Shown in pieces: positions 3,181 to 9,894 of a stretch of 10,411 bases of DNA. The DNA is from Hepatocystis sp. ex Piliocolobus tephrosceles (taxonomy: Eukaryota > Apicomplexa > Aconoidasida > Haemosporida > Plasmodiidae): contig CABPSV020000692.1 in assembly GCA_902459845.2 (NCBI GenBank), positions 1 to 10,411 on the forward strand, given 5' to 3'. The position numbers and the translations under genes are program-made. The notes under the pieces were generated by a model that saw only the letters and a program-made list of their open reading frames with translations, was not told the DNA's origin and did not search any database. Numbering within the stretch: position 1 is the first letter of the stretch; every line of letters starts with the position of its first letter.

Positions 3181-3492
3181 ACGGTAAATTTTTGTATACA
3201 ACACAATATAAACTATTTTTATTTATTTATTATACTGCACTGTACCATATTATATTTAACTGTTAATTTTTTTTTTTTTTTTATGCTCATTGTAATATGT
3301 ACATTACCGCCGAATTAAACTTTATTGGTAACTTATTTATTTTTAAGGCTAGCTATTTTTAGCTAATATATTAAATTCTGCGAAACAATAATATTACAGG
3401 TACTCATAAAATGTGCTAGCAATTCGATTTAGCATATTATTACCACGATTATTATAATAATTAATATTATTATTATTACCAATTATTTCGTT
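2993..3492. other. divergent intergenic region, part 1
   Basis: This is the 5' flank of the minus-strand gene. It holds AAAT-type degenerate repeats at about 3090-3143 and a 35-nt poly(A) at 3144-3178. At 3290-3440 there is a patch of more complex sequence with small inverted repeats: TAGCTA-TTTT-TAGCTA at 3350-3365, and TGCTA/TAGCA arms near 3412-3433. Only very short ORFs are present (for example 11 codons from about 3282). I see no gene. Confidence 0.5.
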
Positions 3493-3728
3493 ATCATTTT
3501 ATTTAATAAGTTTTTTTATCATTTTATTTAATAAGTTTTTTTATCATTTTATTTAATAAGTTTTTTTATCATTTTATTTAATAAGTTTTTTTATCATTTT
3601 ATTTAATAAGTTTTTTTATCATTTTATTTAATAAGTTTTTTTATCATTTTATTTAATAAGTTTTTTTATCATTTTATTTAATAAGTTTTTTTATCATTTT
3701 ATTTAATAAGTTTTTTTATCATTTTATT
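3493..3728. repeat. 25-bp minisatellite, 9 perfect copies plus a partial
   Basis: The unit consists of ATCATTTTATTTAATAAG followed by seven T. It repeats perfectly from 3493, with copy starts every 25 bp up to 3693, and ends in an 11-bp partial at 3718-3728. No copy differs by a single base, which points to recent expansion or active homogenisation. Confidence 0.97.
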
Positions 3729-5214: not shown

Positions 5215-6312
5215 ATGATATCTGAAGAAACCCACAGTTACAACGGAAATATAAAAGATGGTTTATTCCATGGGTATGGTATTTTAATGTACTCTAAAAA
5301 CGAGAAATATGAAGGTGAATTTGTTTATGGTAAAAGAGAAGGGAAGGGTAAATTCAAGTATGCTGATGGTGCAACATATGAAGGTGATTGGGTAGATGAT
5401 AAAATTCATGGAAAAGGGATAGCTCGATTTGTTAGTGGTAATGTATATGAGGGTGAATGGAAAGATGGTAAAATAAATGGCTATGGTATATTAAAATATA
5501 ATAATGGTGATATGTATGAAGGAGAATGGATTGATGGTATGATGAATGGGAAAGGTACTTACACTTATGAAGATGGGGATGTATATATAGGAGAATGGAA
5601 AAATGATAAAAGACATGGAAAGGGTAGTGTTAAATATAAAGGAAATGAAAACAAAATAGCAGAAACATATGAAGGTGATTGGTTTGAAGGTAAAATGCAA
5701 GGAAGAGGTACTTATTTTTTTGCTGATGGAGGTATATATGAGGGAGATTGGGTAGATGGTAAAATGGAAGGTAAAGGTGTGTATAAATATTTGAATGGTA
5801 ATGTATATGATGGTGAATGGTTGAATGATATGAAAGACGGGTATGGTATATTAAAATATGTAAATGGAGAAATGTATGAAGGGTTTTGGAAAAATAATAA
5901 AGTAAATGGAAAAGGGACATTAACTTATAGTCAAGGAGATAAATATATAGGAGAATGGAAATTAGCTAAAAAATCAGGTGAAGGTGAATTAATTTATGCA
6001 TCAGGTGATAGGTTTAAAGGTATATGGAAAGATGACAAAGCAAATGGATTTGGTGTTTTGAATTATTCGAATGGTAATAAATATGAAGGTGAATGGGTAG
6101 ATGATAAGAGACATGGTTTTGGTACTTTTACATGTAAAGAAGATTCATCTGTTTATTCTGGTATGTTTGTAAATAATAGAAAAGAAGGAAATGGTATATT
6201 AACATTTAATAATGGAAATATTGTTGAAGGTATATGGAAAGCAGGCATTTTAACAAAAGTCACTAAATTTCAGTTGAATCCGACGTCACCATGGAACGAC
6301 CCGGATTTGTAA
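5215..6312 (+). CDS. MORN1: MORN-repeat protein, probable MORN1
   Basis: The product has 365 residues and is almost nothing but MORN repeats. The first, degenerate repeat spans about 8-30. Clear 23-residue repeats of (K/T/V/M)YEGEW-type start at 31, 54, 77, 100, 123, 151, 174, 197, 220, 243, 266, 289 and 313. A last partial repeat lies at 336 onward, ahead of a short tail that ends NPTSPWNDPDL. Repeat 6 has five extra residues (around GNENKIAE). The length and near-pure MORN make-up match apicomplexan MORN1. That protein is known in Toxoplasma and Plasmodium as a scaffold of the basal complex and inner-membrane-complex ends during daughter budding, and in Toxoplasma also at the centrocone. 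There is no signal peptide or membrane segment, and no intron. Unlike its neighbours it has no Asn/Lys insert, as expected for a packed beta-solenoid. The symbol rests on length and architecture; another MORN family member is possible but less likely. Confidence 0.95.
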   Translation: MISEETHSYNGNIKDGLFHGYGILMYSKNEKYEGEFVYGKREGKGKFKYADGATYEGDWVDDKIHGKGIARFVSGNVYEGEWKDGKINGYGILKYNNGDMYEGEWIDGMMNGKGTYTYEDGDVYIGEWKNDKRHGKGSVKYKGNENKIAETYEGDWFEGKMQGRGTYFFADGGIYEGDWVDGKMEGKGVYKYLNGNVYDGEWLNDMKDGYGILKYVNGEMYEGFWKNNKVNGKGTLTYSQGDKYIGEWKLAKKSGEGELIYASGDRFKGIWKDDKANGFGVLNYSNGNKYEGEWVDDKRHGFGTFTCKEDSSVYSGMFVNNRKEGNGILTFNNGNIVEGIWKAGILTKVTKFQLNPTSPWNDPDL

Positions 6313-7434: not shown

Positions 7435-7563
7435 TGACATTAGTGTAGAGTTATTAGATTTTCACAAATCGCAGTGTCATTTTATTTTATTCCCTATGAT
7501 AAGATTTAATTTTACATAATACATTAACAATTATGTTGTATTACATTGTTTTTATATCATTTC
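6844..7563. other. intergenic low-complexity region
   Basis: No gene is seen. A small CTTTTCC-type repeat lies at about 6945-6978. Mixed A-rich sequence follows at 7215-7330, and a 43-nt poly(A) at 7390-7432. Just after it, ATGACA (7434-7439) and TGTCAT (7475-7480) form a loose inverted repeat. Minus-strand frames here give Phe-only peptides. Confidence 0.6.
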
Positions 7564-7819
7564 AATTTAATTTTTTTAAAAGTTCATCAGTTGTCAATTT
7601 AATTTTTTTAAAAGTTCATCAGTTGTCAATTTAATTTTTTTAAAAGTTCATCAGTTGTCAATTTAATTTTTTTAAAAGTTCATCAGTTGTCAATTTAATT
7701 TTTTTAAAAGTTCATCAGTAGTCAATTTAATTTTTTTAAAAGTTCATCAGTAGTCAATTTAATTTTTTTAAAAGTTCATCAGTTGTCAATTTAATTTTTT
7801 TAAAAGTTCACCATTTGTC
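7564..7819. repeat. 32-bp minisatellite, 8 copies
   Basis: Eight units of 32 bp have starts at 7564, 7596, 7628, 7660, 7692, 7724, 7756 and 7788. Each contains AATTTAATTTTTTTAAAAG and then TTCATCAGTTGTC. Copies 5 and 6 share a GTTGTC to GTAGTC change, and copy 8 is altered at its end (CACCATTTGTC). The array ends 149 bp before the CtIP-like start codon. Downstream, 7850-7893 carries three decayed short repeats around CTGATAGTT. Confidence 0.97.
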
Positions 7820-7968: not shown

Positions 7969-9894
7969 ATGACAAACTTGACAAAAATGGAAAAAAGGTT
8001 CACTTGTAGTTTGGAGGGAAAAACTGTATACAATGAGTTTACAAATTTACTAAACCAAATATTTGATGAGTTAATATACGAATTTAAAACAAAATTTATG
8101 GAAAAAGTATGCATAAAAATTACTGATACAAAATTTAATAATTTTATATTAGAAATTGATAAAAAAAGACAGGGTAAAAATGATGATAAAGAAGTTAAGG
8201 AAGAAAAAATAAAAAATGTTGATTTATGTAATAATAGTACCTTATCGGTTTATTTTAACAATTGTAAAAATGTTAATAAACATAATTTATCGAAAAAAAT
8301 ATTAAATGAAATGATTAGCAAAACAAACAAAAATGAAAATAGTTCAGATGAAAAAGTCGATACGGAACGTTTATTTACAGAATCTTCATCTGTAGAAAAA
8401 AAAATTGATGAAGCTGAAGTAAAAAACATTTATAAAAAAAGAAGAACATTATTATCCACAGAATCGGTCAAAAAATACTATATGCAAAAAAAAATAATGT
8501 CAAATAAAATAGTGTCAAATAAAATAAAAAGTGAAAATATCTTAAAAGAAAAAAATAATAATAAAAAAACATATGATTTAGACAAAAAAATAAGTATGGA
8601 AGTAGAAAAACATGAAAATGATAATTTAATAAATTTTTTACCTGTACTTGATCAGAATAATTATAATCGTAATAGCAATTATAATGATAATTTTAGTAAC
8701 ACTAACAGTAGTCATAACAGTAGTCATAACAGTAGCATTAGTGGTAAAAAATATGAGCCTATTTATTTCACAAATGAGACTAAACAGAATGTATACAACG
8801 ATATGGATAAGATATCAGAAAAAAATGAAACGGGAAGAAAAAGATCACAAAAAAGAATGTCTCAAGAATATAATGAAGAAAAAGAACAACAAAAAATAAA
8901 AGAATATTTTAAATATTTGTCAAATAAAAAAGAATCACCATCAGGATCACCATTAAGATCACCATCAGGATCATCATCAAAAACAGATACATCACTAAAT
9001 TTCGAAAAAAATGTTAACAATAACAATATAAACGTTTTGTCTAAATCAAAATATGTTGAAACAAGTAATGATTTAAAAACAAAAAAAAATTTATTTTTAT
9101 TTCAAAAGAAAGAAAAAACATGTGATTGTAAAAAAGACAAAAATAAAAACGGAAATCTATATTTTGAAGTTGTTAGAGGGAAAAAGCGTAAAAAATTATT
9201 AAAAGGGTTTGACTGTGTAGAATGTAGAGAGTTTTATAATGAAATATTATCAGATAGTTCTGAAGATTTGAAAACAATAAATCAAAAACATATAACAATA
9301 AAAGACTCAGAAGATGAAATAGAAGAAGAAAAAAAAAAATATATCTGTAAAAATAGTATAAACAATGCTAATCAAGTGAAAAAAGTAAATATTTCTATTG
9401 ATAATATTTTAACAAAAAATAAAAATAATAAAAATAATGTAGATGAAAAAAAAACATCAGAAGAAAATATAAATAGTAAAAAAAATGATAATAACATTGA
9501 AACTATAAATTATACAATTAGTGATCTATTAATTGAATATAATAAATGTTCAGAAAATATTAACAACAGTAATAATAATAAAAATGAGAACGTTATTGAT
9601 CTGTCTTCTAGCTTAATTTTAACAACTGATATAAATAACTCGAACAATAATGGAAACTACGATGATGACTTGTATAAAAAAAACACAAGTACTTTTTTTA
9701 GTACACCACAAAACGGTCAAATGGAAAAACAAAAAATCAAATCCGATTTTTATTTAATTAGTGATCAAACACAGAAAGAAAAAAAAAAACAAAATAAAAA
9801 AGAAGCTATTATTCAATCTATTTCACGTCATAGATATCATAGCAAAGTTAATGATTCACCAGAAAATTTCTGGAGTTTTGATTTTTTTAAATAA
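7969..9894 (+). CDS. CtIP/Sae2/Ctp1-like DNA end-resection factor
   Basis: The product has 641 residues. CtIP, Sae2 and Ctp1 activate the Mre11-Rad50 nuclease to clip blocked DNA ends and start resection for homologous recombination, including Spo11-made meiotic breaks. The family's C-terminal domain is visible in two pieces. Piece one (398-427) has the YFEVVRGKKRKKLL basic helix followed by CxxC (C416, C419) and EFYNEIL. Piece two (619-640) has the RHR motif (620-622) and SPENFW (630-635). Between them lie about 200 residues of Asn/Lys-rich sequence, where relatives have roughly 20. A helical segment at about 18-50 could be the N-terminal oligomerisation helix. The middle is low complexity, with SPSGSPLRSPSG (323-334) offering SP sites. 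VIDLS (542-546) resembles a SUMO-interacting motif. The start is the ATG at 7969; Met7 is an alternative. No intron or membrane span is seen. The resemblance is from motif reading, not a search. Confidence 0.9.
   Translation: MTNLTKMEKRFTCSLEGKTVYNEFTNLLNQIFDELIYEFKTKFMEKVCIKITDTKFNNFILEIDKKRQGKNDDKEVKEEKIKNVDLCNNSTLSVYFNNCKNVNKHNLSKKILNEMISKTNKNENSSDEKVDTERLFTESSSVEKKIDEAEVKNIYKKRRTLLSTESVKKYYMQKKIMSNKIVSNKIKSENILKEKNNNKKTYDLDKKISMEVEKHENDNLINFLPVLDQNNYNRNSNYNDNFSNTNSSHNSSHNSSISGKKYEPIYFTNETKQNVYNDMDKISEKNETGRKRSQKRMSQEYNEEKEQQKIKEYFKYLSNKKESPSGSPLRSPSGSSSKTDTSLNFEKNVNNNNINVLSKSKYVETSNDLKTKKNLFLFQKKEKTCDCKKDKNKNGNLYFEVVRGKKRKKLLKGFDCVECREFYNEILSDSSEDLKTINQKHITIKDSEDEIEEEKKKYICKNSINNANQVKKVNISIDNILTKNKNNKNNVDEKKTSEENINSKKNDNNIETINYTISDLLIEYNKCSENINNSNNNKNENVIDLSSSLILTTDINNSNNNGNYDDDLYKKNTSTFFSTPQNGQMEKQKIKSDFYLISDQTQKEKKKQNKKEAIIQSISRHRYHSKVNDSPENFWSFDFFK

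Follow-up and report, generated by a model that had tools for sequence, protein, structure and literature searches.

A CtIP/Sae2-like protein of Hepatocystis with a C-terminal domain split by a low-complexity insert

Among the closest described systems, here cited from excerpts of the papers concerned, Rad50 binding by the C-terminal part of Sae2 requires phosphorylation and is lost with the rad50S substitution K81I (PMC6167383). In fission yeast Ctp1, the part predicted to interact with Rad50 consists of the last 17 residues, which nearly coincide with a 15-aa peptide capable of stimulating MRN; the minimal Rad50-binding region of human CtIP in two-hybrid assays is 849–888, past the RHR motif, and binding takes place without a need for T847 phosphorylation (PMC11260466). 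The RHR motif of the human protein is numbered R837–R839 (PMC6344080), which places C835 two residues before it. A C-terminal fragment of human CtIP showed a native mass increment of 63 Da, and zinc was suggested on C813, C816, C835 and H838, an assignment described as needing further scrutiny (PMC11317151).

Excerpts of two papers describe Plasmodium as being without classical end joining (PMC6635534; PMC4647826), and because this pathway has been lost (PMC6635534), the way in which these parasites initiate break resection bears on meiosis and on genome change. In P. falciparum, a gene with a SAE2 domain has already been published, mentioned in the excerpt concerned as a PfHDAC1 target; beyond this mention, we found no experiments on the CtIP/Sae2-like protein in the literature. 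The term CtIP occurs 0 times in the paper on the P. berghei MRE11 knockout (PMC7761864), and excerpts of a review of meiotic resection (PMC12453631) add nothing for Plasmodium. A search of open-licence literature, and therefore weak evidence of absence, returned no paper dealing with the split of the domain, with the insert or with a zinc site in this protein.

The gene and its family membership

The window analysed here is a whole stretch of 10,411 nt from Hepatocystis sp. ex Piliocolobus tephrosceles (contig CABPSV020000692.1, assembly GCA_902459845.2). The assembly is AT-rich (12.39 Mb, 611 contigs) and the protein relatives found were those of Plasmodium. An open frame at 7969..9894 on the plus strand encodes a CtIP/Sae2-like protein of 641 aa followed by a stop codon, and all features of this gene given below lie on the same strand. 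Also on the plus strand are an EF-hand protein (891–1685; matches at residues 13–64 and 199–225, with a long low-complexity stretch between them), at whose start codon a 45-base A run ends, and a MORN-repeat protein (5215–6312; 14 matched MORN stretches); in P. falciparum, MORN1 presumably adjoins the SAE2 gene. A 153-aa ORF on the minus strand (2154–2615) gave no convincing family match, and by eye it may have a further exon near 2860–2990. Two tandem arrays were seen as well, one intergenic (3491–3728) with 9.5 copies of a 25-bp AT-rich unit at 100% match, the other (7562–7819) with a 32-bp unit repeated about eight times in nearly identical form (98%), located 150 bp upstream of the start codon of the CtIP/Sae2-like gene.

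Comparison of the whole protein with the Pfam SAE2 profile (PF08573) gave an E-value of 4.5e-10 and 41 bits in two stretches, against a curated cut-off of 19.8 bits, confirming the CtIP/Sae2 assignment made in the first-pass annotation. When the halves were searched apart, the tail alone (residues 601–639) scored 41 bits (4.6e-10 for residues 600–641, profile positions 67–105) and the first half alone (residues 398–425) scored 18.3 bits, slightly below the cut-off, in agreement with the earlier statement that the C-terminal domain is split and its profile hit halved. The point is illustrated by HMM-HMM comparison with plant COM1, in which the first half alone aligned (moderate probability of 85.5, E = 5.7e-6). 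The further expectation that profile searches could miss the protein did not hold, since the tail by itself exceeds the cut-off, PF08573 annotation is precomputed on all seven Plasmodium orthologues found and UniRef uses the name DNA endonuclease activator (Ctp1 C-terminal) for six of them, the ovale row carrying no UniRef name. NCBI names the same seven as conserved Plasmodium, hypothetical or uncharacterized proteins. Databases already carry the CtIP/Sae2 identification.

A six-frame search of the whole assembly with the SAE2 profile returned a single match, the CtIP/Sae2-like gene, and motif resemblance by chance was ruled out by this result together with the scores of the whole protein and of the tail alone. 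Searches of PDB sequences with the full protein, either half or an eight-sequence profile gave no match at E up to 10.

The first half of the C-terminal domain comprises residues 397–430 (9157..9258; LYFEVVRGKKRKKLLKGFDCVECREFYNEILSDS), corresponding to Pfam profile positions 2–30, and the second half comprises residues 611–641 (9799..9891). Within the first, FEVVRGKKRKKLLKGFDCVEC occupies residues 399–419 and includes the CxxC motif (C416 and C419, 9214..9225); within the second, RHR (R620–R622) is part of RHRYH (residues 620–624, 9826..9840), and PENFW (P631–W635) is part of SPENFW (residues 630–635, 9856..9873), the putative start of a Rad50-binding tail as judged from excerpts of PMC11260466 and PMC6167383. 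Between C419 and R620 lie 200 residues. The first-pass annotation, whose span (9163–9894) begins at F399, had given these motif positions and a gap of about 200 residues, and was exact to the residue. Its figure of roughly 20 residues for the CxxC–RHR spacing elsewhere in the family agrees with human numbering (C816, R837) and fails for plant COM1-type proteins, in which the gap is 30–35 in 120 of the 120 listed. With about 62 columns between the half-motifs of the Pfam profile, as estimated from match ends, this spacing varies within the SAE2 family.

Orthologues were found in Plasmodium vinckei, P. cynomolgi, P. vivax, P. knowlesi, P. ovale curtisi, P. fragile and P. coatneyi, which together with the window protein make up eight Plasmodium-type sequences. 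Five of the seven belong to what we take to be the vivax/monkey clade, and with sampling this shallow, invariance across all eight is partly a matter of shared descent. P. falciparum was absent from the protein-search matches, an uninformative absence given that P. vinckei was present in one of two listings; we infer that PF3D7_1031300, the P. falciparum SAE2-domain gene, is orthologous to the window gene. Scanning three of the seven orthologues with PF08573 gave 30.9–37.6 bits in two stretches each. Both CxxC and RHR were present in 7/7, and the order of CxxC, RHR and (S/T)PxxFW near the C-terminus is kept in 8/8 Plasmodium-type sequences and aligns with 26 plant-type proteins. The latter were drawn from a survey with a typed bait that produced 975 matches, of which 120 were listed (105 named, all from land plants and several from the same species, and 15 unnamed). 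Sequence comparison thus covers Plasmodium and the listed plant-type proteins.

Overall identity of the window protein to the seven orthologues was 22–28% in the eight-row alignment. Mean orthologue identity was 0.60 over residues 397–430, 0.11 over residues 431–610 and 0.83 over residues 611–641, making the C-terminal tail the best-conserved part and the insert the least. Residues S630, P631, N633, F634 and W635 are invariant in all eight Plasmodium-type sequences. An alignment of 34 rows (the window protein, its seven Plasmodium orthologues and 26 plant-type proteins out of the 120 listed) contained 17 identical columns, all of them within the two half-motifs, and CxxC was invariant in every row.

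Near the N-terminus, AF2 predicted a long helix at residues 15–53 (8011..8127), with pLDDT of 72–73 over residues 21–40 and a poor model elsewhere. Mean orthologue identity was 0.45 over residues 26–65, versus 0.15–0.16 on both flanks, and the segment is a candidate oligomerization helix.

The gene is very probably the parasite's orthologue of CtIP/Sae2/Ctp1 and, to judge by its relatives, an activator of the Mre11-Rad50 nuclease.

The low-complexity insert

The two half-motifs are separated by a low-complexity insert at residues 431–610 (9259..9798), of which a 180-residue core (residues 432–611) is 20% N and 16% K. The gap from CxxC to RHR spans 170–206 residues in 8/8 Plasmodium-type sequences, well apart from the plant-type range given above, and an insert core of 150–186 residues occupies the same place in the seven annotated orthologues. 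A short helix, ISDLLIEYNKCSENIN, was predicted inside the insert (window 9517–9564, residues 517–532), and residues 520–529, with a mean pLDDT of 82, ranked among the most confidently modelled segments of the C-terminal AF2 prediction.

If the insert were an unspliced intron, the true protein would have a contiguous domain, and four frame-keeping GT/AG pairs do occur near both insert ends in the ranges scanned. Yet the 540 nt of the insert contain no in-frame stop, where shuffles averaged 19 stops and 0/5000 were stop-free, and first-order simulations of the insert likewise gave 0/5000 stop-free sequences. Codon-position GC across the insert resembles that of the flanking coding sequence (residues 66–396). 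The insert is therefore coding, and with annotated orthologues carrying inserts of comparable length at the same position, the intron reading was rejected as exceedingly improbable.

Low-complexity inserts are common in these parasite genomes. In the same assembly, the match to the DNA-binding domain of Mre11 falls into two pieces, separated by 426 nt of the same frame that contain Asn-rich runs; at this locus (L003:1501–2475, contig C138 of G000) the interruption amounts to about 142 residues with Asn/Phe/Ser-rich repeats. Since Mre11 is interrupted likewise, the insert in the CtIP/Sae2-like gene is no special event in this parasite, and it is an ordinary parasite-style insert of a kind seen elsewhere in the genome.

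Such an insert could nonetheless be a functional regulatory element that alters DNA or partner binding, for which excerpts of PMC11260460 provide a precedent in the apicoplast nuclease PfExo, a Plasmodium enzyme whose substrate range is changed by a low-complexity insert. Its occurrence in 8/8 sequences, a core length held within 150–186 residues and the short helix predicted at residues 517–532 are compatible with a role of this type. We consider it unlikely, though worth keeping in mind, as sequence identity within the insert is merely 0.11 and low-complexity inserts are found elsewhere in the genome, for instance in Mre11.

The proposed zinc site and the C-terminal tail

Across the alignment of all eight sequences, invariant Cys or His columns were limited to C416, C419, H621 and H624, the two His residues forming an HxxH motif that overlaps RHR. 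At the position of H624, all 120 listed plant-type proteins have R (108) or K (12). The equivalent of human C835 is I618 in the window protein, I/F/Y in 8/8 Plasmodium-type sequences and V in 120/120 listed plant-type proteins, and a Cys two residues before RHR is thus not a family-wide feature. Nor was any Cys found within 20 residues before RHR in the eight Plasmodium-type sequences, P. vinckei having one at 21. This pattern suggests, as its simplest reading, a single CCHH zinc clasp reaching across the insert, with C416 and C419 as the first half of the site and H621 and H624 as the second; H621 may instead serve DNA binding rather than zinc. AF2 models of the full protein (8 sequences; mean pLDDT 39.2, pTM 0.18) and of residues 380–641 (34 sequences; mean pLDDT 54.2, pTM 0.23) were too weak to judge either the clasp or the rejoining of the halves.

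A rival to the clasp, which leaves the CtIP identity as it stands, holds that the RHR-SPENFW tail accounts for the whole function and that the CxxC half forms a patch of its own for binding DNA or protein, with neither reassembly nor a shared zinc. Published excerpts (PMC11260466) would fit, given that Rad50 binding by human CtIP in the two-hybrid assay needs 849–888 alone and that MRN is stimulated by a 15-residue peptide from the end of Ctp1, as would the lack of a confident joined fold from AF2, in models too weak to count for much. Mean identity of the CxxC half is, however, 0.60 between stretches of 0.16 and 0.11, and the same residues are kept in plant-type proteins, which together place this half under selection; a tail acting alone would also leave the exact invariance of two Cys and two His unexplained. 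We put the chances of this reading somewhat short of even.

The equivalent of the Rad50-docking module lies wholly C-terminal of the insert in the window protein. The S/T-P (CDK) site of Sae2 S267 and human CtIP T847 is present as S630-P631, invariant in 8/8 and presumably phosphorylated. By analogy with the described proteins, the N-terminal helix would oligomerize, the RHR region would contact DNA and the last ~22 residues would dock on Rad50, S630-P631 acting as a cell-cycle phosphorylation site. The docked tail would then switch on the Mre11 endonuclease, which would cut close to break ends that are blocked or meiotic. The N/K-rich insert of ~180 residues would be a disordered loop linking two modules that can be separated. 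Its presence would be tolerated because the tail can probably act as an autonomous peptide, and also because C416, C419, H621 and H624 would bind one zinc and so pin the ends of the loop together.

Partner genes and comparison with known systems

The same assembly contains Mre11, the N-terminus of Rad50 and a TP6A/Spo11-type match, and no Ku match was found in it, in line with the statement of the first-pass annotation that Plasmodium has Mre11 and Rad50 and is without the NHEJ core; the Ku model matched 1/14 control genomes, and the assembly may be incomplete. Nbs1_C had no match in the assembly either, an uninformative result since 0 control genomes were matched. The Rad50 frame (L004:1486–2682, contig C114 of G000), whose best PDB matches were RAD50 chains, comprises the first 398 residues and has its stop 148 bp from the contig end, which is probably why the Rad50 zinc hook had no match in the assembly.

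Comparison of the Rad50 N-terminus (L004:1486–1740) with yeast, at rad50S sites that we in part take as given, showed in this one species that K6 and S14 are kept, that R20 is replaced by Thr (with an Arg at position 19) and that K81 is replaced by Asp. The published Sae2-Rad50 phospho-contact may therefore not apply as it stands. These departures from yeast at K81 and R20, and the fact that no functional data for the protein were found, would also fit a protein that has kept its SAE2 domain but lost its function in resection, and that now either serves another role or is the product of a decaying gene. With a tail conserved across eight sequences, an open frame, and both Mre11 and the Rad50 N-terminus present, we regard this as improbable and retain the resection activator.

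Joining the Rad50 changes to the zinc site leads to a broader proposal, put forward tentatively: that the zinc site of Plasmodium CtIP has been re-wired, H621-x-x-H624 replacing the proposed or likely ligands C835/H838 of human CtIP and CEH plus H of plants in a CCHH clasp around a disordered loop of ~200 residues, and that, with Rad50 charge-reversed at the rad50S site, the interface between activator and nuclease has co-diverged from that of the host. The rearrangement to CCHH and the change in the Rad50 pocket look new and worth a test. Recognising the split orthologue points to a zinc site and a Rad50 interface that may be specific to the parasite, and provides a natural case of a domain that tolerates a 200-residue interruption; significance is reduced by the family label already in databases and by the frequency of low-complexity inserts in these genomes.

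The first-pass annotation had expected a resection activator to be of central importance in a parasite of this kind, a claim partly weakened by excerpts reporting that MRE11 of P. berghei is dispensable in asexual blood stages and required in oocysts, which in the knockout are small and degenerate and undergo no sporogony (PMC7761864). The strongest prediction for the gene is accordingly a mosquito-stage, meiosis-linked role, and not one in general blood-stage repair.

By published descriptions, human CtIP resembles the window protein in having CxxC, RHR and a CDK site (T847) in a conserved Rad50-binding stretch. It differs in its gap, about 20 residues by published numbering versus 200, and in its proposed zinc ligand C835 two residues before RHR, where the window protein has I618. 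Ctp1 and Sae2, again by published descriptions, share a short C-terminal tail that acts as a Rad50-docking activator, with a CDK site at S267 in Sae2; no long insert appears in the excerpts describing them, whereas the window protein has one of ~180 residues. In plant COM1/GR1, VRxK....LKGxxCxxCxxFY and SRHRY....(S/T)PxxFW align column by column with the window protein (26 of 120 listed), but the gap is 30–35 rather than 200 residues and R/K stands in place of H two residues after RHR (120 listed). A Cys-Glu-His that starts eight residues before RHR in 26/26 aligned COM1-type proteins is absent from the window protein. The seven Plasmodium orthologues share its architecture, insert included, and differ from it in insert sequence and in having SPKNFW or SPQNFW where the window protein has SPENFW.
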